From Isoetes taiwanensis (taxonomy: Eukaryota > Streptophyta > Lycopodiopsida > Isoetales > Isoetaceae): a DNA stretch of 64,000 nucleotides. Every line of letters starts with the position of its first letter. The first letter of the stretch is position 1. The position numbers and the translations under genes are program-made. The notes under the pieces are model-generated. The model searched no databases. It had not been told where the DNA came from and worked only from the letters and a program-made list of their open reading frames with translations. Positions 3,393 to 56,079 of the stretch are shown piece after piece. The stretch lies in contig JAJEKV010000054.1 of NCBI GenBank assembly GCA_021234155.1, forward strand, positions 5,007,962 to 5,071,961, in the 5' to 3' direction.

Positions 3393-4763
3393 TTAGAGGA
3401 AATATGGATGAAACAAAAGTTTTTGATAATAGATGCTAGTCCATGTTGCCAGAAATGGGCAACAGTCACGGGCCGTGGGCCGACCCACACGCTGATAGAC
3501 ATCACACGTGCGGGCGTGAGCGTGGGCATCCTTGAAGAGCGTGGGCCAGAAATAGCCTGCGAGAAGTATTTTGCGTGCCGTGGTGTCACCATGAAAATGA
3601 CCACCACCAAGCCCTTCATGGGCTTGTCGAACAATATCGAGCACTTCATGAGGAAGAACACAGCGTCGGAGGACCATATCCTTATCGCGTTTGTACAGAT
3701 GGCCCACAACCATGGTATAGTCACGAACCTCACGGAGAAACTGACGGCGGCGTGATTGAAGCTTTTCTGGAGAGAGCGTGGGATCTTCGGAGGGAAGAGC
3801 ACCAGTGAGAAGATACTGCTGGAAGTTATGAAACCAATGGGGCGTGGCCGTGACCAAAAACAACTGTGCATCAGGAAAGGCATCTGAAACACCCGTGGAG
3901 GAATCATCTGTGTGGATGCGTGAGAGATAATCTGGTACAACATGAGATTTGTCAGCCTTATGAACGATTTCAAAAGGAGCGAATTCTTGCAGCAGAAGGA
4001 CCCATCGAGCAATCCTGCCCGTGGGCGTGGACTTGTTGATCAAATAAAGAAGTGACTGATGATCAACAAAGAATTTGATCTGACTGCCCAACAAATAATG
4101 ACGGAAGCGTTGGACACAAAAAATTAAGCCCAATGCCTCCCTCTCGGTGGCAAAGTAGTTGCGCTCAGCAGGATTGAGTTTTCTGCTGGCATAATGGTTC
4201 GGTTTATCTGTGTGCGCGTCAAATGCTTGTGAGAGAACAGCACCAATAGCAAATGCTGAGACATCGACATGAACATGAAAGGGCTTGTCCCATTGAGGGG
4301 GAACAAGCACTGGGGCCTGAGTAAGCAAGATCTTCAACTGTTGGAAAGCAGCATCCGCCTGGGAATTCCAAGCCCAAGTGGATTCATCACCCGTGAGTTT
4401 ATGAATGGGATCAGCAATGGCTGCAAGTCCAGGAATGAAGGTGGAATAATAATTTACCTTGCCCAGGAAAGAACGTGTCTCCTTGATATTAGATGGTGCT
4501 TGAGCTTTAAGCACGCAACTGATTTTAGCAGGATCCGTGGTGATGCCCTCTTTACTAACCACATGTCCTAATAGAACACCAGAGGTGATGCAGAAGGTGC
4601 ATTTCTCAGGATTTAGACTAATACCAGACTCATCACATTTCTGAAAGACGAGCTCTAACTTGTCCAGGTGATCATCCATGGAACTGTAGGCTGAAAAGTC
4701 ATCTTGAAAGATCTAGAGAAAGGGTTTCTCCTTCATATAATCTTGAAAAACCGAGCATGATGC
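3393..4763 (-). pseudogene. Ty3 pol: RT C-terminus, RNase H and integrase zinc region
   Basis: This starts at the shifted frame. The RT active-site motif reads FQDD (about 4698-4709), where Y/F-x-DD is expected, preceded by a TAG at 4713-4715. Then follow the RT thumb (LNPEKCTF, GHVVSKEGI), a tether, and RNase H with its acidic residues in HVDVSAFAIGAVL, TEREALGLIF, FVDHQSLLYL and PDYLSR. The integrase zinc region begins at HEGLGGGHFHG and runs through AGYFWPTLFKDAHAHA. Its last Cys is Tyr (CDVYQR where CDxCQR is usual). The catalytic core D-D-E domain is missing: after GRPTARD the sequence is unrelated. Broken and non-functional as it stands. Confidence 0.88.
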
Positions 4764-5163
4764 GTTGAAAAGTGGATGGAGAGTTGGATAAACCAAAAGG
4801 AACCACCTTGTAGGCAAAAGTGCCCCACGGGGTGGTAAAGGTAGTCTTGAGTTGATCTGCCTCTTTGATTGAAATTTGATTGTAGCCTGAAAAGCCATCC
4901 ATGAAGGAGTACATTTCATGACCAGCAACCTCTTCCAGAACCTGGTCTGTGAAGGGAAGCGGAAAGTGATCACGCTCCGTGGCCTGATTGAGTTTGCGAT
5001 AGTCCACGCAGACACGGATCTTACCATTGTGTTTGAGAGCAATGACGATGGGGCTCACCCACTCAGAATATTTGACCTCATAAATCAAGCCAGCAGCCAG
5101 GAGTTTATCAATTTTGGCCTTGACATGGTCACGGTAATTGGGGTTGAGCCGGTACTGTCGTTG
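4699..5163 (-). pseudogene. Ty3 pol: reverse transcriptase palm and fingers
   Basis: Continues the protease frame after a TAG at 5164-5166. Recognisable RT blocks are KIDKLLAAGLIYEV, SEWVSPIVIALKHNGKIRVCVDYR, KLNQATERDHFPLP, MDGFSGYNQI (first catalytic Asp), TTFTTPWGTFAYKVVPFGL and SPSTFQRIM. The frame ends at a TGA at 4699-4701. Homology leaves this frame earlier, at the T-run (minus strand) near 4750, and resumes in the neighbouring frame with FQDYMKEKP. The enzyme would copy element RNA into cDNA in the cytoplasmic particle. Confidence 0.9.
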
Positions 5164-6828
5164 CTAGACAGGACGTGCATCTGGTTTCGTAGGAATGGTG
5201 AGTTCCCCCAAGTCTTTGTTGATACCCCGAAGATCTTTATAGCTCCAGACAAAAATGTGTTTGAATTTTTTGAACAGCGTGAAGGCGCGGGCGCGATAGG
5301 TGGTCGGGAGATTTGCTGCAAGGCGGACGGGCTGATTGTTGCCAACGTCCACAATCTCCACCTCCGGAGTCTGAATGTGTGGAACAACTTCCGTGTCTTG
5401 AACAACGTGAGCAGGAGGTTGAAACATGACGGGATGAGTGGCATTTTGTGTGGTGAAGAAAAGTAGTTGCTGAGCATCATCAAGCACTGGTTGCTTCATG
5501 ACGGCATGTACATCCACCATGTCGGGAGGAAGTTTTGTATCTGAAGAATGATCGATGCGTTGGATGCGATTGCAAGGAGCCAGGTAGGGGTCGAGAAAAG
5601 CGGCCACAACCTGGTCTTGGTCGAGAGTCATCTCGCCCCACGGATCAGCATACTTAGGGTAGGATGACAGAGGCAGACTCGTAGGAGGAGCCTGTACATG
5701 ATAGATGTTTTGTGCTTCGTCAGAATCGATGTCTGAGAGAGAGGGTTCAGCATGTTCGACCGAGATGATCTTGCTGGTTTCCAAATCCATGGTGGCATTG
5801 AGATGACCATCCGTAATGACGAGCTGATCCGTGGTCCAGTAATGGATACTTTTGGCCTGACGGAGAAAAGGCCTGCCAACCAACATTTCATAATCACCTG
5901 GATCTTCCCCAGCTTTCCAAACACCAAATTCCAAGGGGAATCTGAGGTCGCCTATATTGATGTGAAGAAGAGGCGTGACGCCTTGAGGGCGCGTGATATG
6001 GCCATTAGCCAATTTGATGTCATATGGGGCACGGTAAAGTTGTTGGATGCCCATTTGCTTGCGGAGCTTATCAGTGATAAGATTGTCAGCACTACCCCCG
6101 TCAATTTGAACATGGTTGACTTGGTGATTGCCCACCGTGGCATGTACCGTGGGTGTGGAGGTAGCGACAGCCCCAACCAGAACCGTGGGAAGGGGCAACA
6201 GGTCCTTGAGAGCAGGACACAGTTTCAAAATGGTTGCTAAACTCAAGGGAATCTTGATTTTTGCAAGTTCTTCCTGGAGTTCCAAGGGAACATGAGAAAA
6301 GGGATATGCGGGATCCAAGGGAGCAGGAGACGGTGGTAATGAAGCAGCAACTTCTTTGAGAAGCTCCACCTCAGCAACAATGTTAGGATATTGCTGAGAG
6401 CGTGGAGGGTGAGATGACGGAGATGCATCCTGACGCTGCTGAGCTCTGGTGGTGGCGTGTACATTAGCCAGTGTTCGTCCTTCAACAGCCTGCATGAGGT
6501 TGAGGATACTTTGTCGGACTTTTGGCATGACATGAGGCATGAATTTATCCAGATCTGGGGCAAAATGAACATGTTTGGCCTCAGCATGAGGGATCGTGTC
6601 AACTGCAAAAGCAGGTTGCGTATCATGAGGAAGGATGGTCAAGGGGCGTGACGCCCTGGTCTGGCGTGAAACCAAACCAACCCAATTTGACGGTTGAACT
6701 GGAGGATTGAGAGCTTGGTAAATTTCTTCCTGAGCTTGTTGATCCAGAGGAGGAGTTGACGAAGGAGCTGGTTGATACTGTGATTGTTGAGGCACGCGTG
6801 GTGGCTTTCGGAGAACAGGACGAGGGCC
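5164..6828 (-). pseudogene. Ty3 pol: aspartic protease and linker to RT
   Basis: Lies in the same frame as gag, directly after the TAA at 6829-6831. The first part is Pro/Gln-rich. The retropepsin core follows at VQIDGGSADNLI (catalytic Asp; D-G-G-S is common in plant Ty3 proteases where others have D-S/T-G) and then LVGRPFLRQA, the flap-to-helix block. A proline-rich and acidic spacer leads to the RT connection TYRARAFTLFKKFKHIFVWSYKDLRGI. It stops at TAG 5164-5166, and the following codons continue the same protein. It would cleave the gag-pol precursor. Confidence 0.85.
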
Positions 6829-8472
6829 TTATTTGCCATTAGCGATCCAAAGTTGATAGGCCGTGAGGCGAACTGACGTGGTTTGATTCGTGCCTGGAAG
6901 TTGGACTTGAACTTGAGGAAGTTGAGGGCACGCCGTGGTGGTATGACCCCATTCCAAACAATGATAGCACTGAGATTTAGCAGGATCAAAAGGAGGACGG
7001 TTGCTTTGTCCCCGTGGCTGCTGAGATTGTTGATACTGTTGAGGAGGTTGTGCTTGAAATTGCTGAGGTTGATATGACGTCTGTTGCTGAGGCGTGGTCT
7101 GGACTTGATAAACCATCTTTTGCTGGAAGGGTGTAGGATGAGTACGAGTGCATTCTTCCGTGGCATGATTGCACATGTTGCAGCGTTTACAATGAGGAGG
7201 GCCATTGGTCTCATTGGCCAAATGGCCTTGATATTTGCAGATGTGGCACCAAATTTGACTGCGTTGAGGATTTGAGTGTTGAGGCTGAACTGCAGTCTGA
7301 GGTACCATGACAGGAGGAATGAAGAGTAGCTCCTGGAGGGCCACGCCGTGGGAGGAAACATTAACTGAATGATTGATAAGTTCGATGGCCTGCTCCAAAG
7401 TCTTGGGGCGCAGGTATTCAGTCACGAGACGAATAGCCGGAGGAAGGCCCTGGAGAAACCAGACGAGAATCTGGCTTTGCGTGGGGTACTCTTGAAATTT
7501 GCTGAGGAGGATGTGAAGACGATCCGCAAAATCCCGGGCTGACTCCGTGGGCTCTTGCTGAAGATCATTGAGTTGCTTGAGAAGAAGTTGATCATCATCT
7601 GTGGTGCCATAATGAGAAAGGAAAGCAGTCTTCATTTCTGTCCAGTTTTGTTTCCAATGGCTTTTGTTTGCCATGAGCCATTGACGAGGGGATCCACGCA
7701 GCGTGGTGGAAAAGATATGGAACTTCAATTGAGGTTGAGCGTGACCATTTAGGACAGCCAGAGCCTCAAATTCTTCCATATGAGCTTGAGCACTTTGGTC
7801 TAATGGTTTGCCTTTAGTGCTGTCAAAGGTTGGATAGGTCAACTTGAGAGTCTAAAAAGCAGATTGGGAATGGCCTTGTGCATAGAGAGGCGGTGTATAA
7901 GGAGGAACATAATGGGGCGGAACTTCCATGGATTCCGTATGGGGTGGCAAAGGAGCAGAAAGACCCTGAAGATATGCAAAAGGAGGTTCCTGTGGTGGAG
8001 GACCTTGGGGTCCGTGGTCATGAGGTTTGAGATCGGTAAGAGTGTAAACTAAAAGTGTTTGTTGAAAAGAAGGGGATTGAGGATAGGTCTGAACCTGGGC
8101 AGGGCTGAAAGAGACATGGGGATAACCCATTCCTCCAGGGGGAGATGATGGTTGTGAAGGTGGAGAAGTATGGCCAGAGGAGATATGAATGTAGGCACTC
8201 TCTGGAGTGTGGAAATAAGCTGGAGGTGGCTGAACAGGTGTATGATGAGGTGACTGAGGTTGGGAACAATGTTTACACGCTGGAGGAGAGCCAGGACGAG
8301 AGTGAACACGAGGAGTAGGTGGCGCCAATTGAACTCGTGAGCGAATATGGCCTCCCTCAATATCATAACCTGTGTCATACATATCTCAAGCAACTTCGCG
8401 AAGTTGATGTCGCTCCAAACGAGATGCCGTCTGGCTAAGAAGCTCCTTTGGAGTGAAAGCTCGGGCAGACAT
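6829..8472 (-). pseudogene. Ty3 gag, with two internal in-frame stops
   Basis: The start is chosen at ATG 8472-8470 (MSARAFTPKELL), the first Met after the leader. About 547 codons run to TAA 6829-6831, broken by TGA 8386-8388 and TAG 7852-7854, both in frame with clear homology on each side. After a Pro-rich N-terminus, the capsid region carries LKFHIFSTTLRGSPRQW, WTEMKTAFLSHYG and SARDFADRLHILL. A Gln-rich spacer precedes a CCHC zinc knuckle, CYHCLEWGHTTTAC, with an additional Cys/His cluster upstream (WCHICKYQGH, CKRCNMC). It binds genomic RNA and forms the particle. Confidence 0.85.
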
Positions 8473-9362: not shown

Positions 9363-12300
9363 GGACTGTCCACCGTCAGGTTGGCTTGCTGGAATGTTAA
9401 CACTCTCAACTCTGATAAGGTGTGTACTATGTACGATTTGTTGGAGAGCATAGATGTTGTGTTCTTTTTAGAAACATGCGAGCATGAGGAGAATGGCTTG
9501 CCTGATATTGTTGGTTTTAAGTTATTATCGTCAGTCTGGAATCATAAAGGCTGGGCTCTTAAGGGTTATGGTGGCATTGCCTGTTATGTCACGGAAGAAA
9601 TTGTGCATTTGGTTAATGTGGTTGCTAATAAAGCAAATAAACAATATATAGATTGAATTACCTGGTAAGTTTAGCAAGGTTTATGTTGCTGGGTGTTATT
9701 TCCCACCAAGAGAATCTCCTACATATAAGAAAGGAGACTTGGATAAGGATGATCCTTTTTTCCATCTGGAACAGGATATGTTGGCCTTAAGCCTTTCTGG
9801 GGAAATCTTACTGTTGGGGGATTTCAATGGACGTACAGCAGACAATCAAGCCGCATTAGTAAGCTCAGATGGGGATCCGGAATGGGTTGAGATGTTGGAT
9901 GATGAGAGTGTTTGTGCTCAGGGTTGGAATAGAAACACTGATGATAAAGCAAAATGGATCACTCCACAAGGTAGACATGTTTTACACCTATGCAGTGGTT
10001 TTGATATGGTAATTTATAATGGCACTGCTCACTTTCCTGGGTCTGGCAAACGTACCTGTAAGAATGCTAGTGTTGTGGATTATATTATTGCAAAACCTTC
10101 TTTCAAAGAACAGGTGGTTGGCTTGTCCATTGGGCGTGAAAGAGAGGAGTCCAACCATGCACCTCTTCTCATTGAAGTCTCTGTGATAAGTAAGCACATA
10201 TGTTCTCAATCAGTTAAGCATAATAGACTGCATATGAATTTTGATAAGGCTGATCACTATAGTGCTTTATGTAAAGAAAAGGTAATGTCCACAGATTGGA
10301 CAGGTAATATATGTGATATTAGCAAAAAGCTATTAGAAAATTTACTTTCAGCTTCGTGGGATTGCTTTTTGTCACATAGACAACAGATGGGATTGCCATG
10401 CAATAGGCGGTTTGATTCTGAATGTAAACAGATGAGACGAAAGCTTAGAACATCATATGGATCGGAAAGGGTAGAAATAAGGAAAGTATATACTAAACTG
10501 ATAAGGCGGAATGAAAGAGAATACCTGCACTATAAACATCAAATGATGGTTACAGAACTGCTTGATAATCCTAAAAAGTTCTGGAACAGACTTAAGTCCA
10601 CCCAGCAACATAATCATGCCTTGGATGTGAATGCTCTCATGGCACAAGTGTGCGCGCTATATCATGTACCAGGTATGGATGGGAGGATGACTATTGAACC
10701 TAATGATTGTATGCTTTTTACAATCAATGATGTGAAGAGCGGACTCCGAAAATTATCAAATGGGAAAGCTCCATATGCATATAATATGGTGGCAGAAATG
10801 TTAAAGTGGGCTGGTGATGAGGTTGCTGATAAATTAGTAACACTGTTTAATGCGGTCTTAAGAGATGGTTTTCCCTTGGAATGGCAAATTAACAGGGTTG
10901 TACCTCTTCATAAATCTGGTAATGTCCATGATCCGGGTAATTATCGCATGATTATGATCAGCAGCATATATGCAAAACTGTTTGCTAGCATTTTGGAGTC
11001 TAAAATTAGCACTTGGGCTGAAACTAAAAATGTCAGAGCAGTTGGACAAGCTGGATTTAGACCCAAAAAGTCTACCACCGACCAGCTTGTTACACTCAGG
11101 GCTATGATGGATTCTGTTGTGGGCAAGAGAAAGCCACTATATGCCACTTTTGTAGATTTTGCTAAAGCTTTCGATACGGTAAATAGGAAACGTCTATGGC
11201 AGCATATGGTGGATCTAGATGTGCCCTGTAAATATCGAAATGCTGTGGGTAGACTTTATGAGAAAGTCTTGGTTCAATTATCTTCTCCATTTGTAGAAGT
11301 ATGTGATGAGTGTGTATGCAGTAACATTGGGGTCAAGCAGGGATGTCCCATGTCACCTACTTTGTTTGGGTTATTTATCGATGAACTGGAGAGTTGGATA
11401 CGCTCACAGGGAGGAGATGGTACACGACTTAGTGGATATGTCATCATGTTGCTTCTGTATGCTGATGATGTAGTCCTCCTTGCTAGGAGCATAGGGGGTA
11501 TGCAGGGATACTTAGATACGCTGGCGAAATTTTGTGATGCCAAAGGTATGCATGTTAATTTGAATAAAACTAAGGCTATTGTTTTCGGAGCAAATAAAGT
11601 CGATCATGTACATTTTTATTATAAAGGGGAACCCGTTGAGATTACAGAAGAGTATAAGTATCTGGGCTTGCTTGTTGATAAGAGTTCGACATGGAACCAA
11701 GCAGTGGAACACAGGGTTAATGCCGGTTTGAAGGCTTTATATGCTATGCAAAGGAAGTGTGTGAAGGCTGACATTTGGAATTTTGATATGAAACGCATGC
11801 TATACAAGGTCCTTGTGCAAACAGTTGTGCTATATGGATGTGAGATATGGGGGCCCGGATTGGCTAATGACACATGGAAAAGGGTAGAAAAGATTCAAAA
11901 GAAAAATTTTCATACTAAACTGGGTACTAAGATGCAAACACCATATGACATGATGCTCGCTGAGTGTGGTATGCTCCCATTGGAGATAGAGGCACTATGT
12001 AGACTTCTTAGATATTTGTGTAAAATTTTGTATGATATTTCTGAAAATAGCTTACCCAGGTTAGCATTAGAAGAAACCCGGATGAAGGGGTGGTTTGCAG
12101 ATATTGTTGATTGGCTGAGAAAGTGGGGAATGGATATAAATGAATTGGAAGGCCATAGAGAACACCTCGAAGAGTGGGTGCATGGGCATTACACTAGAAA
12201 AGCATGGCATATTCCGGCAGTTAAGAAGGAATATTATAGAGCAGTTTTCAATCCTGAACTGCGAGAGGCACAATACCTTAGAGAGGCCATATCAGTTAAA

Positions 12301-12684
12301 CATAGACATGCTATATGCAGAATGAGGCTAAGCTCACATCGCCTTGGGGTTGAGATTGGGAGATGGGCAGATATACCCCATGAACTCCGGCATTGTAGAC
12401 TCTGCAATGCGGGGGTGGTGGAGGATGAGGAGCATGTGCTGTTATGTTGTCATGCATACGATGACATTAGGGACAGATATAATATTGTTGATGGATTACT
12501 TGCAGATTTTTTTCTGTACCCAGGGTCTTGCATAAGAGCATACATTGTTGATATGTTGGAGCGTAGGGAGAGTAATTTGAAATCCTTGGATGTTGAAGAT
12601 TTGGAGATAGAGGAGCCTAGTGTTCTCTCATCTGAAGAGGCACTAGATGATATATTCTATAGTCATGAGATTGTAGTTCTTTGA
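9363..12684 (+). pseudogene. LINE ORF2: endonuclease-reverse transcriptase, one frameshift
   Basis: The frame opens right after the ORF1 TAG and reads LACWNVNTLN (endonuclease Asn), VVFFLETCEHEE (catalytic Glu), GGIACYV. At about 9651 one base is lost, and the next frame continues IELPGKFSKVYVAGCYFPP to the end. Endonuclease motifs are LLLGDFNGRT, VDYIIAKP and SNHAPLL (SDH is usual; Asn may be normal for this family). RT has NYRMIMISSIYAKLF, GQAGFRPKKST, TFVDFAKAFDTVN, GVKQGCPMSPTLFG, LLYADDVVLLA and YKYLGLLVD. The C-terminus has a Cys/His motif, CRLCNAGVVEDEEHVLLCC. It nicks target DNA and primes cDNA synthesis there. The downstream frame alone is 981 residues. Confidence 0.92.
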
Positions 12685-12686
12685 TC

Positions 12687-12714
12687 GTCTCATAGACCTG
12701 GCAGTCTCGTAGAC
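12687..12714 (+). other. LINE 1 3'-UTR double hairpin
   Basis: Two small stem-loops in a row, GTCT-cat-AGAC and GTCT-cgt-AGAC, separated by CTGGCA, lie just after the ORF2 stop. The same arrangement occurs at the ends of LINE 2 (14563-14592) and LINE 4 (44179-44205) with changed but pairing bases. A 3'-end structure recognised by the element RT is the likely role, as in other stringent LINEs. Confidence 0.55.
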
Positions 12715-12745
12715 GAAAACAATAAAATTTCTATTTCTATTTCTC

Positions 12746-14539
<1,794 letters not shown>

Positions 14540-46473: not shown

Positions 46474-46646
46474 TTGTTAGGGGTAATGTTCGGTGGCAGG
46501 GCATTACACGGGGTAAGGCCACCTGGCGAGCCCCAGTGGCCTTACCCCGCGTAATGCCCTGCCACCCAACATTTCCCCTCGAAATGTTAGGGGTAGGCCA
46601 CATTTGACACGTGCGAGGAGGACATTTTAGACATTACCCTTAACAA
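46474..46646. repeat. Foldback element with 43-bp hairpin arms
   Basis: Arms 46480-46522 and 46536-46578 pair with three mismatches around a 13-nt loop. The inner 31 bp (GGTGGCAGGGCATTAC...) has only one mismatch. An outer pair, TTGTTAGGGGTAATGT (46474-46489) and ACATTACCCTTAACAA (46631-46646), encloses it. No coding. It lies directly against the left inverted repeat of the recombinase unit. Confidence 0.92.
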
Positions 46647-46929
46647 TCCGGTGAGCTTGGCGAGGTTGGCGATGGCGCTCCATTAGGCGTTTGCCTTCCT
46701 TGCTCACTTTTTGCCTTGCTCCCGTGCTGTTTTCTGAGTTGCTTCCTTTTTGCGGACTTTTGGTGTTGATTTTGACGCTGGCGCTTCAATTTTCTGATTT
46801 TCACTGGCACTTGCATCTTTGGTCTTGACTCAGCAGCATGATTATTTCCTGTAATCTAAATGTTTTCATGATTATCTATCGATTTTCTCATGATTTTCTT
46901 GAAATGCATGCGTCCTAACATGTTTTCAT

Positions 46930-47033
46930 TGCGTGCCTATTGAAGATATTCCATTGAAGGAGTTAAATGATATGCTGGTCAGATTCATGCTTCAAGTAAA
47001 AAAGAAGAATGGAGATCTTTATCCCGCAGACAG
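46930..47033 (+). CDS. Tyrosine recombinase exon A (N-terminal helices)
   Basis: The frame reads IEDIPLKELNDMLVRFMLQV, KKKNGDLYPAD and meets the donor GACAG|GTAAAG at 47033. The wording L-x-x-F-x-x-V-x-K-K-x-G-x-x-Y-P is the N-terminal core-binding signature of Crypton/DUF3504 recombinases (EVRKKDG..YPP in animal members, from memory). The 5' boundary is uncertain and no start codon was fixed. Confidence 0.6.
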
Positions 47034-47105
47034 GTAAAGTTTTTTGTGCATTTCTTTTAATTTGTTTTAATATATATAGACCAGTGGCTGTTTCTGCGTC
47101 TGCAG

Positions 47106-47201
47106 CCTTAGCGTTTTATACAGGGCTATTGGAAGAATGGGGAGGAAAAATCAAGAAAAAAAGATTGGAGAGACGGGAAATCAGGAAGTCAGGTTCAATA
47201 T
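47106..47201 (+). CDS. Tyrosine recombinase exon B
   Basis: The acceptor TCTGCAG (47105) joins exon A in phase to give D-S-L, then SVLYRAIGRMGRKNQEKK and ETGNQEVRFNI. This is the helix that in family members reads TLY-x-I-x-x-I-x-R. The exon is cut at 47201 by an inserted module; GGTTCAATAT reappears at 47431. Confidence 0.6.
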
Positions 47202-47430
47202 AATGCCACGGTTCTATTGCGATAGCAATAGAACCGACATTCCTTGGATGGGGACGTCCCTTTCTTCTCGTACCTCCTATTTATTCTGCCTCTCTTCGTC
47301 TGCCATCGGCGTTCTCTTGAGCTAGTTTTCTTCTTCTTCTTCTCTATCCTACCAGTCTTCGGTCTCAGACCGAGTAGGAAGCAGACCGAGTAGGAATCTC
47401 TTCGCCTTTTCATCAACCCGATGGTTTGAG
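47202..47430 (+). mobile_element. Inserted module copy 1 (229 bp) in the recombinase gene
   Basis: Bounded by a direct repeat, GGTTCAATAT (47192-47201 and 47431-47440). The first 155 bp (from AATGCCACGG, with the palindrome GGTTCTATTG-cgat-agCAATAGAACC) is nearly identical to 52963-53125. The remainder (CAGACCGAGTAGGAA twice) is specific to this copy. No coding capacity. It may be a retroposon or SINE-like unit. Confidence 0.5.
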
Positions 47431-47440
47431 GGTTCAATAT

Positions 47441-50400
47441 GGTCGGTTCTGGTGCTTCTCTACTGCAGTTCATTGCTTGTTCTGTTTTCCTACAGTAGTT
47501 CGTCACTCTTGGTGGTTCGGTTGTATGTAAGTTTAGTCGTGGCCTCTGGATTTTGATAAGGTTTTAGGGTTGCTTTCGCTAGATTAGGGTTTATCTGTTA
47601 TTTTAGAGTTTCTTTTGTTGGATCGCTTTCAGGAATTTGGGTTATCTGCTTCTGTTCATATAGATTCTTAGATGGGTTCGGGTGAGATTGACTTATTTTT
47701 TCCAATGCGTTATGGCGGTTTTATTTTTTATTGTGATGATTTTCTGGGATCCCAGTCTTGCTTATTTTTGGGAAGCCCATTTTTCTGTAATTTGACCGGT
47801 TAAGTTATTGTTCCTCTATTCTTCATGGACGTTACTGTAGAAGGTTGTCCAGGGCTGTAGGTGTTGAGGCCGAATCTCCTTACCACGCACGCCCTTGAAC
47901 ATGTGCAAAGGTGGCTGCAGATCGATCTGGCTTTTGGATGCCAAATTTCTGGCTTCTTAGTATTTTACGGCAGCCTTGGATCTTAGTTACGGAGTGCTTG
48001 TTTTTGGGCATGGAGACCAAGCGATTGCAGATTACTTTGAGCATTCGATCGAGCTGCGTGCCCGTTCCAAAGGCTTGTTCAGGAGGTCATCCGGTTCTCT
48101 CAAATACAGCATCTCCGGTATTTTATATTCTTGCATGCACATGTTTAGCTCTAACATTTTAGACTTGAATTCTCAACTCATCCAAGGATAGATTGTTCGA
48201 ATGCATCCAAGGATGCAACTGTGGAGATTTGATGTATGGCCAGAAAATGGAGCTGTCATTCCCTCAAACACTATGATTCTATTGTTGCGAAGTGCTGGTA
48301 CAACACCTGGATTTTGTTTTTCCTTTTATTTGCCACCCAACAGCAGTCATACCACTGTTGTCCGTGCTATTCTTAAACTCTACTAACTCTTCTTCTTTAA
48401 CTTTAACAACAAAAGTGTTTATTTTCTGAATAAGCCATTCAACGTCTCTTTGCTTAGCCTATAGCAGAATATAGCAGGACTCCTATTAGAAAGCATTGCA
48501 TGTATTCTGTTAGAGAGCATTGCATCCATTCCGTCAGTGCCACTGTTTCTAGGCCCTCTACATATGGTCTTAACGACATTCTCTGCGTCAACCATGTTAG
48601 ATGTAGGAAGACCATGGCTCATAGCCAGTTCTGCTTTTATTAGTAATAGATCGATCTGCATGTAGTAACAGATAAATCAGTTCATGCCTGCGAGTGCGTC
48701 TTTGCCTTTATGGATCTGTCTTTTGGTAGCAACATGAAGTAGAATATCTCCTTTTTTCTCTATGTGGCCAAGAGATGCATTGTTAGAAATTGTACATTTT
48801 ACCTCTTTGCCCATGTGCAGCAGCACAGTACATAGCAGCCCATCCTTTTGCATCACATCTATCTTTATCAGTTTCCAATACTCTCTTCTTGGAGTTCCAT
48901 TGTGCCCTGTGTGATTTCTCTGATCTGATTCTAAATACTAACACTCATATTGCTTTCGTCCAGAAGAGCCGATAAATTAGTTTGTTCTTTCCATGAGATT
49001 CTCATGAGAGTGTGCAAATTTTTGTGAACTAATTCGCACGTTCCTGTTTCATTCATACTCATTTATACTGATGTTGTATATGTTATACAGGGTTCCATGG
49101 CAATCTCTCCCATATACATTATTCTTACTTGCGCTAATATTGGTCTTATGTTTCGAAGCGTTTCTTGGGCAATACCATACGATCTTCAATTGTAGCTTCA
49201 ACCTTGTGGATCTAACATTGTCCGCAGCCATTTTGATCTGGCCAAGATCTTCGATCTGGAAAGGGCCTGGTTTTTCCTATTATTCTTTCTCTATTTTGCA
49301 ACTATCAAGTCTCTCCGACTGTAAAGTTCCCTCTTTCTTTTTCACTCCATCTAATTTTTATCAGGTTTGCAAGGGCTTAAATGAGTACTTATGGCGAGGT
49401 GGTTTTATGAACTCGGGGGCTAGGATATATCGATTCCTAAGTGAAGTTGTCTTCTGAGCACAGGTTTCATTCATTATAGAATATTGACGTATTTGTTAGT
49501 TGCATGTTGTTGGTTGATTGACATTACTTTTTATTGCTGGGCAAACTTGAATTTCTATTCCCATTAGGGCAACGTGCATGTGTTTCCAACATTACTTATG
49601 AAGTGCATATTTTTCTAACATTATTTGCGTTCTTTGTTCCTTTTACATCTTTTTTCTTTCTTTGGCTTCATTGCTCCTTCTAATACCCGTGCTTTCATTA
49701 AGCCGTCATTTTTGAATTTCATAAGTGATTTGCTTTGATGTTTTACTTTTATAAGTTCAGATGAACCCATTGCTCATATTTGTTATATCTATTCGTTAGA
49801 TTAGTTTTGTTTCACGGTATTTTGTCGTCATAGTAGTCAATGAGTTTGTCAGCTACATTGGTTCTCTTGTTTAATCTCAAGTGCACTTTGATTGTTGTCA
49901 ATTTTCGTTGTGCCATTTTTCATGTCTCCCATTCTTTGGTTCTCTTGTTTAATCTCAAGTGCACTTTGATGTTGTCAATTTTCGTTGTGCCATTTTTCAT
50001 GTCTCCCATTCTTTTCTGTGTTCTATTTGTCCATAGACTTGGGTGTCCTTATTCGCCCATTCTTTTCGATCCATTTTATCTTTTGTTCTCAGCCATCTCA
50101 TTAGTCCCTTGTGCTCCATGCTTCTACGATTCTTTCACTTTGTTGTCCACAATTGCTTCCCTCCCCTCTTGTCTTGTTTAGCCTTCCACTCTTTCCATAT
50201 TGGTTCTTATGTGATCGTTGTTATGGTTTCATATGATGACTAATTTTCTTGTCTCCCTCTTTTTTTGCATTCCATTTTGCCCATATTTTTGGGTGTCCTT
50301 ATCTATCCATTCTATTTTATGGCTCATTTTTATCTTGACCACCACATTAGCCCTTTGTACCCCTTTGGCTTCTAATGTTTATTGGCTTTGATTTCTACCA

Positions 50401-52925
50401 TTTTGTCCCCCCTCTCCAGTCTAGATTAACCACCCATTCTTCTTGTGTTGGATTTGTCACACTTACCGATTTGGCCCCATTCCACCTATTGTTAGTTCCC
50501 TTGTGATCTACTTATCCCAATTGCCATTAATCCTCTTTTCGGCTGCCTTATTGTTTCTATTTTTCATTGAAACATAGGTGTTCCAGAGGATTTTTTTGAG
50601 GTGCATTTGTTGTTGATGTGCATAGATGATTTCATGTACCTCATTACCAAGTTCTGTCAGGATTGACATATAATTGGATGCACTAGACGAGGACGATGTG
50701 TTTGCTATTTATGGCCTTCTTGTTTATGGCTTTTCACATTTTTTGGTCTTTACATCCTTTCTCTTTGCATAGGCACCATAATTCTCAAGTTTTTTGGATA
50801 TCAACTTTCAACATTTTACACATTGCATTCTTCGCACTTTAGTTTGTAACGTTTTGAGACAATGCTTTATTGGTTGGATTCATCTACTTGAGGTCCTTTC
50901 TAGACTATTTGCGTCTGGAATAGGCATAGTTGGATACATTGTTTACAGCTCTGGTCATGTTTATTTATGTTGTTTCTTTGTTCGTTGTTCCGTTTCTGTT
51001 CTATCCGTTCTATTTGTCTTGCACTTGTTACTTTTCCCTTCTATCCTACGGTTCCATTTACTTATTCTGCATTGCTTTGCATTTTAGTTCGATGTGCTCC
51101 AGTGTTCAGGCTCACTTTGGCGCCGTTGCCGCTAATATGTTAGTCTTTATTCTATTGTTCTGTTTACTGCACTGACCTCATCTTCTATTTGACATCCTTT
51201 TGTCCTTTATATCCCATCATGTGCTTTAATCACATTTGTCCACACTTGTTCTATTTGGTCATTAGTCTCCTTAGCCTCCATGGTCTGATTATTCCATTCA
51301 CACTTTTTCAGTTGTTCTAGTTTGGTCATTTGCTCGCCTTTTCGGTCATTTTCTTAGTTCCATGCGCGTATTGTTCGATTCATTGTGCGTCCCTTCCAAC
51401 TTTTATTTACTTTTAGCACTGCATGTTTTGCTTTTAGATAATTATTCCATTATCTCTATACCTTGTCGCTTTAATCTCTATACCTTGTCCCTTTATATCT
51501 CTGTACGTTATATTTTCTTTGTGTTTGATTCTTCAAGGTTCTTTAGTTATGTTTTGCTCTTAAAAGTGTTTCTTTTATTTCCTTCTTCTGCCTCCCATTT
51601 CTATCGATAAATATTATAATTCTGACTCCTTTCTGACTTCTGTTCATATTATCACGCCATTCGTTACTTCATTTTCTCCTATAGCTCCTTTGGATTTGTT
51701 GCCTTTTTCTTTTTGATATCTATGTTAGTTTGGGCTTATCGTATGTTTTGCTGGCATAATGTTCGTTCGTGCATTAATTCAGTTGGATCTGCGTTTGGTG
51801 GTGGTGGTTATTTTTGGTTATTGTCATATTCGCAGATTTTGTTTGTTTTCATCCCAACAGTTCCTTTTTCCATCTTCCACTGCATTGTTCCATTGTTTCC
51901 TTTTAGGTTTTCCATTGCGACAATATTTCGGTACAGTTCCTTTCGCATCTTTCATCGCATTATTTCATTTTGTTCACTTTAAACATTTTGTTATTTCGTA
52001 TTGTCGATCCCTTACTTACCATTTTTGCCTCGCTTATTTGTCCCATTATTCTATTCCTTTTGTTGTCTCATTACTCCATTATCCCTTATGCATTTTGATA
52101 TTCTGGCACTTCTCACTTGCTCCACTTACCTCGTTCTTCCACTTGCTTCATGTTTCCCATCAGCTCCTTACCTATGCATTTTGTTCATTTTGCATTGTTC
52201 ATTTCATATGCATGTCTTCGTCTTACCTATACATTTGTTTCATTTGTTGCATTGACCCGTATAGACTTATTTTTTCCTTCGGCTTTTACTTTTCATATCT
52301 GTTTGGTTTCTGGTTTGTTCAAATTTGCCAAGTTGGTCATCTAGCCGCTCTACTGGTATCCTTCGATCATGTTACATGTGCTCTAGCTTTTTTAGAATTG
52401 GCTCGTCTCCTTTTTTGGTTTTGAACTTCGTGCCTTTTTTCGCATTGGCCTTTTGTCTATTAGCTTGATCTTGGTTGCTTTTGCATCCATTCGAATCTGG
52501 TTTTTCATCCTGTTTTTCATTGCTGCTACCTAGCTTGACTCCTCTTATACTTAGTTCCTTTTTTGCCATGTGTTTTTGCCATGTGTCTCTTTACCCGTCC
52601 TGTTCTCTATGTCACTATCTGCTCTGCATCCCTTTTATTTGATTCTTTTCTACCGCATGCGATGTTCTCTTTCCATCCGACTTTCATTCCATCTGTCCCG
52701 TTGTTATTCTGTCTGTTCTAAAAGTCCCTCTTGCGTCTTTGGTTGTCTCCAGTTTTGATTCTTTCCACTTGCTCCATATGTCTCATCAGCCTTATCTGTG
52801 CATTTTGTTTTTCCTTTATGCCAGCGACCTTTGGAGACTTATTTCTGCCTTTCTTTATACTATATTTCTTTTTAGCTTCTTTCTTTCTCCTTGCTGTATA
52901 GTTTTGAGATTTGTTCCTCTTCTAT
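47441..52925. other. Long intron-like interior of the recombinase unit
   Basis: T-rich on the plus strand, especially 49.8-52.9 kb, giving long Phe/Leu/Ser-rich open frames (for example 51759-52424) that are compositional. A possible exon-like piece lies near 47930-48120. I see no recognisable domain. It separates exon B from exon C. Confidence 0.4.
49858..50015 (+). repeat. 78-bp tandem duplication
   Basis: TTGGTTCTCTTGTTTAATCT and the following 58 bp occur twice in a row (starting about 49858 and 49936), differing by a 1-bp indel. Confidence 0.93.
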
Positions 52926-52965
52926 CGGCTGTCATATGTGCTATCATAGGACCCATCCTAGGAAT

Positions 52966-54039
52966 GCCACGGTTCTATTGCGATAGCAATAGAACCGACA
53001 TTCCTTGGATGGGGACGTCCCTTTATTCTCGTACCTCCTATTTATTCTGCCTCTCTTCATTCGTCTGCCATCGGCGTTCTCTTGAGCTAGTTTTCTTCTT
53101 CTTCTTCTCTATCCTACCAGTCTCCCTCACCCTCCCTCCCTTGATGGATTGTCTGCACTTGATGGTGGCAATCGTTCCGTTTGTTTCTATATTCTTTAAG
53201 TGCATTATTCATTTTTTCTCAGCGTGGCATAGTAGCCTCTGAGGCATACTTATCATTCTTTCTCAGTGTGGCGATGTAGCCTCCGAGGCAGCACTAGTCG
53301 ATGTTCCCGCGATGGTCATTGTTGCAGGGTTTTGGTTCATTCTATGATGGGGGCTAGTGGCTTTCTATTTCATGTATAGTCTCATTTCTTCTCGGCGTGG
53401 CACTGTAGCCTCCGAGGTATACTTATTACTTCTTTCTTTCTCGGCATGGCACTGTAGCCTCCGAGGCATTCTTCTTTTTCATTCTCTCTCGGCGTGGCGC
53501 TGTAGCCTCCGAGGCAGCACCAATCAGATGATTTTTCCTGCGATGGTCATTCCGCAGATGGTTCTCGATTGGTCGGCTGTTGTCACTTCCTCGGCGTGGC
53601 CCTGGAGCCTCCGAGTGCTATTATATTCTTTCTATATGATTACAGTTTGGCACTTGTCCAGGCTTAAAGTTCCTAACTTTCTAACGGGTCGTTCTCATTT
53701 TCAGACTTTCCATTGCAGGTCTTGTTTTTTGCAGTTTTGTCAGTTGGCAGCGCCATCATGTGTGCATCAACTCACTTTTGGCGAATCTTGCTCATTAGAG
53801 CGGGATTTTTCATCCCGATGAGGAGCGGTCGCCAGTTTTTTCACGTTTGCATATACCAAGTAGTGGAACAATCATCTTTGATCTGGCACTCTTCAATTTT
53901 TATCATGCTCTCGATAAATTGTCTAGTTTCAGAGCATGTTCAATTTTCAAGCTTTTCATATTTTCTACCCCCTAGTAGGGGAACAATATGTACTCAAAAG
54001 ATTTTACAAAAGCTCAATGAGAACACCACTTCACTTACC
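52966..54039 (+). mobile_element. Insertion (1.07 kb) with a 40-bp target duplication
   Basis: A 40-bp sequence (CGGCtGTCATATGTGCTATC...CTAGGAAT) at 52926-52965 recurs at 54040-54079 with one mismatch. The insert begins with the same 155-bp module as copy 1 and ends ACCACTTCACTTAC, resembling the CACTT tail of LINE 2. A long target duplication and a simple-repeat-like tail fit target-primed retroposition. The interior contains a six-copy minisatellite. No protein is encoded. Confidence 0.6.
53217..53615 (+). repeat. Dispersed minisatellite CTCGGCGTGGCACTGTAGCC (six copies)
   Basis: Copies at 53217, 53261, 53390, 53439, 53487 and 53590, each about 28 bp and ending CTCCGAGG. The ends CTCGG and CCGAG can pair. 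A companion phrase, GCGATGGTCATT, occurs near 53311 and 53541. Confidence 0.9.
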
Positions 54040-54062
54040 CGGCCGTCATATGTGCTATCATA

Positions 54063-54521
54063 GGACCCATCCTAGGAATTACTAATGACACTAGAGCTAC
54101 CTATGCTTTTGTATTAGCTGCTAGGATCCAAGGTGTTGGCACTAAGAGTGTTAGGGCACCTTCTATCAGTTTCAATTTAGAAAGGGACCTGTTAGCATAT
54201 GTGGATCATCAAATGACGTTTAATCAGGGCTGTCAGAAGCGTCTGTTTTTTTTTACCTTCGTTTAAGGTTTGAGATAAGGGCAGCGACAGAACTTTATAA
54301 TTTGCTGGATAGTGATCTTTCTATTGGCAGTGATGACTGTGGTGAGTTTATAGAATACAGTAGAAGGGAGAGTAAGAATTATCAGGTAACTGCAATAAGA
54401 TATGATAGCAGTCATTTTAAGGAGCCTGTTCGCACGCATGAGGCAGATTTCGTCATGTCTTTTAAGCAATATCTTAGGCATATGTCTGCCAAAGATTTCT
54501 ATTAACATGCCTGCTGGAAAT
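54063..54521 (+). pseudogene. Tyrosine recombinase exon C (catalytic Arg region)
   Basis: The acceptor ATCATAG (54062) opens DPS. One frame change leads to FVLAARIQGVGTKSVRAPSI, SFNLERDLLAYVDHQ. A T-run near 54247 shifts the frame, then LRFEIRAATELYNLLDSD carries the first catalytic Arg (family G-L-R-x-x-x-E-x-x-x-L), followed by SKNYQVTAIRYDSSHFKEP, DFVMSFKQYLRHMSAKDFY. The donor GGAAAT|GTAAGT is at 54521. The match to Crypton/DUF3504 (x-ARxxx-GxGT-xxxxAxPIS) is clear by eye. At least two frame lesions make it a pseudogene as assembled. Confidence 0.65.
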
Positions 54522-54595
54522 GTAAGTAGTTTGAGATTTTTTATTTTATTGCTTAGCTTGAGATTCAAAGATTATTACTGATTGTTCCTTTTCAG

Positions 54596-54791
54596 GTTTG
54601 GTATTCCCACAATAATGTTGGACTGAAGATGATAAAATTTTGGTTTAAGACAATGGGTTCTTTAATTGATCATGGGGAGATCTCAAATAAATGTGGACGC
54701 GTTGCAACAGTTACACGATTGGCGATGGCAGGTGCTCCTGCTGAGGTTGGTATGAGATCATAGGGCATCGATCACTTGAAGCATATGTAAA
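54596..54791 (+). pseudogene. Tyrosine recombinase exon D (KxxR and HR boxes)
   Basis: The acceptor CCTTTTCAG (54595) opens VWYSHNNVGLKMIKFWFKT, GEISNKCGRVATVTRLAMAG (the HxxR box appears as K-C-G-R), APAEVGM. A one-base shift then gives IGHRSLEAYVK, the second His/Arg box, and the donor GTAAA|GTAAGT at 54791. This block is the most diagnostic of the tyrosine-recombinase fold. Confidence 0.72.
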
Positions 54792-54858
54792 GTAAGTGCT
54801 TGTAATTTCTGCTTGTAAAATCTTGTTATAATTTGTGCTGATAAGTTCTCTTTCTTAG

Positions 54859-55221
54859 GTATGACAGGGCGAAGGATATTCAGATGCATGCCGCTATGTC
54901 TATTATCTCTAATCCAGTTATTGAAACTGGTGCTCCCAGGACTTATGAATCAATGTTAACTGCTAAGATTGAAAAGAAACAAATGAATGACATCTCGTGT
55001 TTTAGTTGCAGTTGATCCAAATGAGAGTGTTGGCCAGCAAGTATCTGTGGAGGCAGGTTCAGTTAAGGGGAAGGAAATTGCTATCCCGATTTGTGTTTCT
55101 AAGGCTCCAGGTTTTGGAAATGACAAGGAAAATGCTAGTACTCAGTTTAGTCTCTATGCGGATATTTCTGATGAAGCTTTATTGGATTTAAAAATTCCAT
55201 CGTCAAAAACTCTAGTCAGTG
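54859..55221 (+). pseudogene. Tyrosine recombinase exon E (catalytic Tyr) and C-terminal tail
   Basis: The acceptor TTTCTTAG (54858) completes V-K-Y-D-R-A-K-D: the Tyr is placed as the nucleophile that forms the covalent 3'-phosphotyrosine bond. The exon continues IQMHAAMSIISNPVIETGAP, RTYESMLTAKIEKKQMND. After a frame change near 54985 it reads VAVDPNESVGQQVSVEAGSV, KGKEIAIPICVSKAPGFGND to KTLVSG, with a donor GTG|GTAAGT at 55221. The tail is unrecognised. Confidence 0.6.
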
Positions 55222-55598
55222 GTAAGTCTCTGCGGCATGTTTTTGGTTTCTCCTTTTTAGGAAGTGTGAGCAATTGTTTCTTCATTCAGTGCACTGATCC
55301 AAGTTAGATCAAAGATGCATTGTAGAAATATCATGGGGAATCTTCTAATTCTGATAAATCTGGTAGTCTATCATCTGATAAAACCTGTTGAATGCCTGCA
55401 ATGGCAAATGAAACTGTTTTTGAATGAAACTTTTGTAATGAATTGTAGATTGCTTGAAGCACTACAACTTTTGAATGGAAACTGCTTTATGATATGAAAT
55501 TTTGGTGTAAGTGACTAGAAATAATGTGAATTTGAATTCAATTGTTGAATTGTATTGTAAATTTGAATGTATTGTGAATTATAATGTATAGCTGGCAC

Positions 55599-55955
55599 CA
55601 CTGTTGTTTCCGTACGGGTACGGTACCTTTCAAGTACTTAGCATACCGTACCAGAGGTACGGTACGTACGAAATGAAAAATGAAATGTTTTTGCTTCAAA
55701 TTTTTGGAGTTTTCAACACAAGTACGGTAAGTATTTTAAAGGTACTGTACGTATTTTATAGGTATTTTATAGGTACTGTAAGTATTTTACAAGTATTTTA
55801 TAGGTACGGTACGTATTTTATAGGTATGGTAACAACACGTTTTAACGTACTGGTTTTTTTTTTTGGTACGTTAAAAACTCAGAGGTACGTTACGAGGTAT
55901 GATACGTAAAATACTTACAGTACCGTACAGGTATGGTAAGTACGTAACAACACTG
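55599..55955. mobile_element. hAT-type MITE (357 bp), GTAC-rich
   Basis: Terminal inverted repeats CACTGTTGTT and AACAACACTG (one mismatch) are flanked by a perfect 8-bp duplication, GCTGGCAC (55591-55598, 55956-55963). This is the hAT signature. The interior is many copies of GGTACGGTAC/GTATTTTATAGGTA. No coding. It lies inside the recombinase unit, near its right inverted repeat. Confidence 0.88.
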
Positions 55956-56079
55956 GCTGGCACAAGCATTGTAAGATGGCACTAGCTAGGACAGGTGGCA
56001 CTAGCACCTTGCCAGGTGGGACAGGAAAGTTATAGGATGTAAGAATCGTCAGAGAAATGTGGCCTACCCTAACATTTCG

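Follow-up and report, generated by a model that had tools for sequence, protein, structure and literature searches.

The 64,000-nucleotide stretch of the Isoetes taiwanensis genome analyzed here (contig JAJEKV010000054.1 of assembly GCA_021234155.1, positions 5,007,962 to 5,071,961; hereafter the window, in whose own numbering positions are given) contains at 46476-56079 a decayed copy of a tyrosine recombinase (YR) transposon of Crypton/DUF3504 type, which we assign to family A. This copy is probably a dead DNA transposon whose single recognizable gene specified a Crypton/DUF3504-type YR and which moved by YR-mediated excision and integration. Its length reflects nested insertions; four full-length relatives measure 3256-3344 bp. 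Compared with one of these, A_L022, the window copy lacks reference bases 514-1315 (about 800 bp, the 5' part of the gene), carries a 6.87-kb insertion (47205-54077) inside exon 2 and contains a GTACGG-rich stretch at about 55485-55955 that has no counterpart in the relative. Because of the frame breaks and the missing 5' part of the gene, it cannot make the protein and is a pseudogene. Within its 3' part we also observe a tandem GTACGGTAC/AAGTATTTTA stretch (55600-55960), which finds no match in A_L022.

A sequence-only reading of this DNA had recognized the recombinase by a series of peptide words, namely KKKNGDLYP, FEIRAATELYN, CGRVATVTRL, GHRSLEAYV and, after splicing, the tyrosine in YDRAKD. 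All are present and in order, and relatives show that they belong to one spliced gene. Two of the three GT-AG introns that it had placed, 54522-54595 and 54792-54858, match introns of the relative A_L018, whereas the long first one was mistaken: most of it is the 6.87-kb insertion, and the true intron 1 occupies 47034-47105. The features of the copy are collected in Table 1.

Table 1. Features of the family A copy in the window
Feature	Position	Strand	Basis and remarks
Whole element, family A copy (9604 bp)	46476..56079	+	Flanking sequences of the copies diverge at either end; collinear with A_L022, a full-length relative
Left-terminal palindrome (hairpin), G^TTAGGGGTAATGTT...AACATTTCCCCT	46476..46579	+	Compensatory changes across 19 aligned copies
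Subterminal inverted repeat CGAAATGTTAGGGGTAGGCCACATTT	46580..46605	+	Equals the reverse complement of the right end except for one G
Exon 1, 3' remnant, core-binding region, ...VKKKNGDLYPAD	46942..47033	+	Gene part upstream deleted; Pfam QRICH1 E 0.0064, under its cut-off
Intron 1 (72 bp), GT-AG	47034..47105	+	Boundaries by eye: GT at 47034, AG ends 47105; relatives have 57-75 bp here
Exon 2, first part (SLSVLYRAIGRMGRKNQEKKIGETGNQEVRFNI)	47106..47204	+	
Foreign insertion splitting exon 2, outside the YR element proper	47205..54077	+	A different repeat, present as a tandem pair (47205-52962, 52966-54077), with AAT at the three junctions
Exon 2, remainder, with frame breaks	54081..54521	+	Catalytic Arg in FEIRAATELYN; catalytic Lys in SKN
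Intron 2, GT-AG	54522..54595	+	By eye; counterpart in A_L018 is 74 bp
Exon 3, NKCGR box and GHRS	54596..54791	+	Frame break near 54750, next to GHRS
Intron 3, GT-AG	54792..54858	+	By eye; counterpart in A_L018 is 77 bp
Exon 4, nucleophile Tyr (YDRAKD) and C-terminal region, with frame breaks	54859..55307	+	
Right-terminal inverted repeat, end ...TACCCTAACATTTCG, nearly constant right core ATTTCG	56055..56079	-	Common right boundary of the family; constancy of the core

The family is large. In the assembly searched (G000; 1,658,258,908 bases in 1110 contigs), where GGTTTAGGGTTTAGGG matches several hundred times per strand, a 102-residue protein from the window found at least 157 exon matches (best 150 scored of 1033 candidates), a lower bound in which some loci are counted twice. 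We aligned five lineages (A, B, C, E and L054). In relatives, exon 1 ends in ...KKKNGDLYPAG, exon 2 has RFGIRAATELYN together with the lysine of SKN, exon 3 contains N-[K/R]-S-x-R followed by GHRS, and exon 4 supplies the tyrosine in YDR. The 3263-bp element A_L018 has an uninterrupted frame of 620 codons once its GT-AG introns (57, 74 and 77 bp) are removed. In B_L031, whose introns measure 75, 85 and 70 bp, a segment of 540 codons stays open through exon 4, the tyrosine exon. A_L022 is open for 504 codons and broken upstream, and the gene is broken in A_L020 and A_L030; a further copy, B_L034, in which one expected word is absent, was not spliced and stands outside this set of five. The lineage E copy (L047) holds exons 2 to 4 in a single 449-codon frame. 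The lineage B element at L031/L075 (G000:C1031, about 16608500-16613900), with its open gene, is flanked by a 68-bp direct repeat (97%) and is missing the outer arm of the left hairpin.

Seven proteins from the five lineages align at 34-70% identity to the first sequence, with lineage E 34% identical to lineage B. Among the invariant residues are S227 K228, N321, S323, R325, G347 H348 and Y357, so that the catalytic lysine, arginine, histidine and tyrosine are present in all seven proteins, and the first arginine in six. Measured against the R-H-R-Y tetrad of Cryptons, the family has both arginines (the first in six of the seven) and the tyrosine, with the histidine of HxxR replaced by lysine in six proteins and by arginine in one; the later GH is found in all. 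The KCGR seen at this box in the window represents no loss of the motif, since every aligned protein reads N-[K/R]-S-x-R. The profile search that had been suggested as a check recovered, at E ≤ 1, the Pfam families Phage_integrase (best 9.6e-6) and DUF3504 (best 2.5e-4) in four of the seven members each, all below the Pfam cut-offs, as well as QRICH1 in five (best 0.0061). One protein displays sub-threshold matches in the N-to-C order QRICH1-DUF3504-integrase. Together, the conserved catalytic residues and these collinear sub-threshold matches point to an encoded tyrosine recombinase, and the DUF3504 and QRICH1 matches, likewise sub-cut-off, may place it in the Crypton/DUF3504 lineage. NCBIfam gave weak matches only, among them the XerA/integron-integrase model in one of the seven (E 0.011). 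Five of the 14 other frames of at least 80 codons in A_L018 and A_L022 were scanned and yielded no Pfam match above cut-off, and their weak matches included no reverse transcriptase or transposase. Searches of viral contigs and genome contigs with A1 returned no relative.

The boundaries of the element are defined by comparison among copies. On the right, 19 aligned copies share the boundary ...GGCCTACCCTAACATTTCG, which falls at window position 56079, and the right repeat copy reported earlier is thus the exact end of the family. On the left, eight aligned copies start at GTTAGGGGTAATGTT, which corresponds to position 46476; from there the window palindrome runs to 46579 and is followed by CGAAATGTTAGGGGTAGGCCACATTT. 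The 26-bp inverted repeat described by the sequence-only reading is real, its two copies (46580-46605 and the reverse complement of 56055-56079) differing by one G, but 46580 is not the left end of the element: in eight left-end copies, the window included, a palindrome of 72-122 bp lies outside this inner repeat, and it is at 46476 that the flanking sequences part. Similar repeats were seen by eye in other lineages, as CGTAATGTT[A/C]GAGGGTAGGGAATTT in B_L031 and as ACAATATTGAAATAGGG, which recurs inverted at the right of E_L047.

With up to two mismatches, the right-end pattern occurs 229 times in the genome against 10 for its reversed control, and the left-end pattern 194 times against 26; counts so far above the controls exclude chance as the source of the ends. 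Among the left-end matches listed, a properly oriented left end lies within 12 kb of 39 of the 64 exact right ends, and none lies in the wrong orientation (the comparison used the 95 left ends with at most one mismatch among 100 matches listed). Four of the 39 paired copies are shorter than 0.8 kb, 22 measure 0.9-1.7 kb, 11 measure 2.9-3.3 kb and two are longer, and short derivatives of 0.35-1.7 kb exist with the same ends. Near the element start, the left pattern is found in 14 of the 20 right-end loci retrieved. The earlier suggestion that the repeats might prove to be the ends of short, unrelated miniature inverted-repeat transposable elements (MITEs) was rejected because the same ends bound the YR-carrying copies A_L018, A_L020, A_L022 and A_L030.

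The left palindrome is a new feature of the family ends, a hairpin that carries compensatory changes. In an alignment of 19 left ends, standard pairs make up 90.5% of the 506 cells, and 37 cells are changed on both sides, compared with 14.4 (standard deviation 3.1) in shuffled alignments and at most 8 when the arms are slid. This count favors well-kept hairpins, because two of the four entries omitted from the 23 available (L055, L058, L064 and the outer of two in L014) are clearly decayed (L058, -11.0 kcal/mol; L064, -13.5 kcal/mol). Neither the tally of pairs that carry such changes (8) nor that of additional pair types (22) rises above the shuffles, 96 and 105 of 500 of which reach these values. 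By eye, both arms of a left palindrome are present in one of three lineage B copies (B_L042), a strong left palindrome in one of two lineage C copies, and a palindrome of about 120 nt at the left of E_L047.

Insertion sites share the preference TTTT/TnTnnnnA, the slash marking the junction, in 39 sites with distinct flanks. The left flank favors TTTT, with T at -3 in 36 of 39 (p 3e-16), while the right flank has A at +8 in 30 (p 4e-10), T at +1 in 26 and T at +3 in 22. Identity between the two flanks over 2-3 bp was observed at eight of the 39 sites, compared with 8.7 expected when flanks are re-paired, and none was longer; there is no target duplication beyond chance. This flank set omits L058, L062 and L069, in which both end patterns were found nonetheless, as well as L010, L012 and L014, since their right end was not found in the retrieved stretch, and L128 as a duplicate locus. 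The search for empty sites that had been proposed earlier produced one. Copy L114 sits in a 49-bp tandem repeat and disrupts its third unit. Both uninterrupted units have the sequence CACAATGTATATCA, and L114 is flanked by CACAAT and TATATCA; the right flank matches for seven bases and then differs, and the net insertion is one element, a shared G aside. Flank comparison among the retrieved copies gave no other empty site, and L061, L063, L067, L100 and L106 were rejected as candidates because they did not align on both sides (by eye). One family A copy, L016 (G000:C1018:38919913-38922964), sits at the apparent right end of a lineage C element (ending in ...GGTGGTTTAC), and its right flank holds a lineage E-like left hairpin; the lineages possibly share a target preference.

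The two junctions of the element differ in their constancy. The right core ATTTCG is present in 17 of 19 copies that were not picked by that core, two of which share a flank. The left junction is commonly G^TTA; its TTnnG resembles the TTTCG of the right, and an identical TTTCG occurs at the left in 3 of 40 copies. For comparison, Cryptons of the fungal and oomycete groups have direct repeats of 4-6 bp at their termini. We propose that the recombinase would bind the inverted arms TACCCTAA...TTAGGGGTA, which would face each other once both ends meet, the joined ends reading TACCCTAA-CATTTCG-TTAGGGGTA with a 7-bp spacer. The YR would excise the element as a circle, with crossover at G^TTAGGGG, and the circle junction would recombine with a T-rich host site TTTT/TnTnnnnA, making no target duplication and keeping the element's ATTTCG core at the right junction. 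The hairpin at the left may be part of the recombination end, and short derivatives that keep both ends could be mobilized in trans.

Several observations weigh against this account of a mobile YR transposon. All Pfam scores given above lie under the curated cut-offs, and neither single-sequence nor profile searches of solved structures (PDB) found a recombinase. One of the seven proteins has a weak match to the transposase family THAP9_C (E 0.24), and one to TLD (E 0.11). Three of the five copies checked for an open gene are broken, the open ones being A_L018 and B_L031. The empty site is a single case and comes from a tandem array, and a constant right core beside a variable left core is unlike the outcome of a symmetric double-strand YR exchange. 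The novelty of the family is tempered by Table 2 of PMC4438587, which lists Crypton among the DNA superfamilies in all groups studied, land plants included, which also qualifies the earlier statement that Cryptons are not established in land plants; the passages of that paper describe no element.

An ordinary terminal-inverted-repeat transposon that had acquired a recombinase gene from a host or a Crypton, its ends being processed by a DDE transposase supplied from another locus, could also have inverted repeats at both ends and many short derivatives. We consider this improbable: the 39 copies show no target duplication beyond chance, the target motif reaches +8, the YR is the only recognizable gene in the 3.2-kb copies examined, and the design recurs in lineage B, where B_L042 has the palindrome and B_L031 the inverted repeat, and in the lineage E copy. 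The THAP9_C match favors such an origin, and the Pfam scans contained no other candidate DDE transposase. DIRS elements encode a YR and leave no duplication, so the family could instead be the remnant of a DIRS/Ngaro-type YR retrotransposon that has lost its reverse transcriptase. This seems very improbable: there are full-length 3.2-kb copies that have both ends, the YR gene is open in one of them, and, of the frames listed for four such copies, the five extra ones scanned include no reverse transcriptase or RNase H. Passages of PMC3212892 also indicate that the YRs of DIRS and Ngaro do not match DUF3504.

If segmental duplication had spread a domesticated host DUF3504 gene family and the ends belonged to an unrelated MITE, this would account for the introns and for the flanks that some copies share (L035/L036, L128/A_L030 and L092/L057), and vertebrate DUF3504 genes are described as domesticated in parts of PMC3212892. 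The 39 copies, with distinct left flanks around identical ends, largely refute this explanation, to which we assign almost no weight; ends and gene travel together in full-length copies, and the window copy is broken. Domestication of the window gene, which the sequence-only reading had entertained, was rejected, since this copy is broken and its relatives are repeated in the genome with varied flanks. For the hairpin itself, an alternative is that the left palindrome is an inverted-repeat relic whose arms are kept alike by repair or conversion and that has no role in movement. Homogenization between arms likewise yields matched changes, the hairpins of L058 and L064 are decayed, and both arms persist in only one of three lineage B and one of two lineage C copies. 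The family A palindrome, however, always occupies the same tip, adjoining the crossover, and palindromes of partly different letters lie at the left side of lineage B, C and E copies; we regard a relic as a real but less likely explanation.

The window contains other repeats as well. The repeat inserted into exon 2 (47205-52962 and 52966-54077), in which no coding sequence was recognized, starts with GCCACGG and a 28-bp palindrome and ends in CATCCTAGG; it forms two tandem insertions, each of the three junctions showing AAT, and the palindrome at its tip means that it too may be a hairpin-ended element. By eye, frames at 3396-8385 on the minus strand resemble a gypsy-type long terminal repeat (LTR) retrotransposon polyprotein, and frames at 9652-14536 on the plus strand, interrupted by simple repeats, resemble a non-LTR retrotransposon. 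An Rfam scan of the window at gathering thresholds found no match.

The family is thus real and mobile-looking, Crypton-like in its gene and junctions and different in its ends. It supports the earlier proposal of a spliced Crypton/DUF3504-type YR in a land plant, bounded by the element's own inverted repeats, and makes a plant YR group plausible. Passages of PMC3212892 (Kojima and Jurka 2011) describe Cryptons as lacking terminal inverted repeats apart from the mariner fusion MarCry, in agreement with the sequence-only reading; the Isoetes family departs from this, with repeats at the inner left and right end in lineage A and, by eye, in B and E, and we call it Crypton-like for this reason. 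It resembles the CryptonA, CryptonI, CryptonS and CryptonF elements treated there in its main YR gene, related to DUF3504, its short core similarity at the junctions and its non-autonomous derivatives. Having no target-site duplication is likewise a Crypton trait, as is an excised circle, which for this family is proposed. Unlike those elements, as far as they are described there, it has inverted end repeats and a hairpin at the left, with three or more introns in its lineage A and B genes and with lysine or arginine in place of the HxxR histidine. The hosts named in the same passages are fungi, oomycetes, a diatom and animals, and the sole plant in the tree legend is Chlamydomonas. Passages of PMC7385966 state that no Crypton is described in Arabidopsis, those of PMC11630846 and PMC5846285 only name the class, and we found no description of a land-plant Crypton in the literature searched, a scope outside which Repbase and most subscription journals lie. 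The animal DUF3504 genes (ZMYM2/3/4, QRICH1, KCTD1 and KIAA1958) appear by weak profile match to share the domain lineage; they are domesticated and lack most catalytic residues according to passages of PMC3212892, whereas the Isoetes family is repetitive and has retained K, R, H and Y.

This large lycophyte family, with defined ends and open genes in some copies, would be a plant's native recombination system that is directional and leaves no duplication. It would also be a eukaryotic case in which one could test directly what a conserved DNA hairpin contributes to YR recombination. A YR is common to this family and to DIRS/Ngaro elements, whose reverse transcriptase and RNase H were not found in the frames examined here. 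Tn916-type elements use a YR, form a circle with a non-homologous core and insert at A/T-rich sites, their core changing with each move. The Isoetes family shares the YR and the A/T-rich target, and a circle with a non-homologous core is proposed for it as well; it differs in that its right core is constant.

Integron cassettes have the crossover consensus G^TTRRRY, and their attC sites have the boxes RYYYAAC and GTTRRRY, with a hairpin between AAC and GTT. Because the one-way core pattern is not explained by a symmetric exchange, we also considered that this eukaryotic YR transposon might recombine a folded single-stranded end in the manner of an integron cassette, the hairpin serving as the substrate. 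Exchange of one strand at G^TT would leave the host core on the left and the element core on the right. This is an improbable proposal, and were it true, the similar design in divergent lineages would suggest an old, separate branch of plant YR transposons. Like integron cassettes, the family combines a YR with a long imperfect palindrome confined to a single end, a putative G^TT crossover (here G^TTAGGGG), fixed orientation and no duplication. Unlike them, it is eukaryotic, carries its own recombinase and has an inner inverted repeat, and the GTT that lies at the inner side of the hairpin in attC is found here at its outer base.

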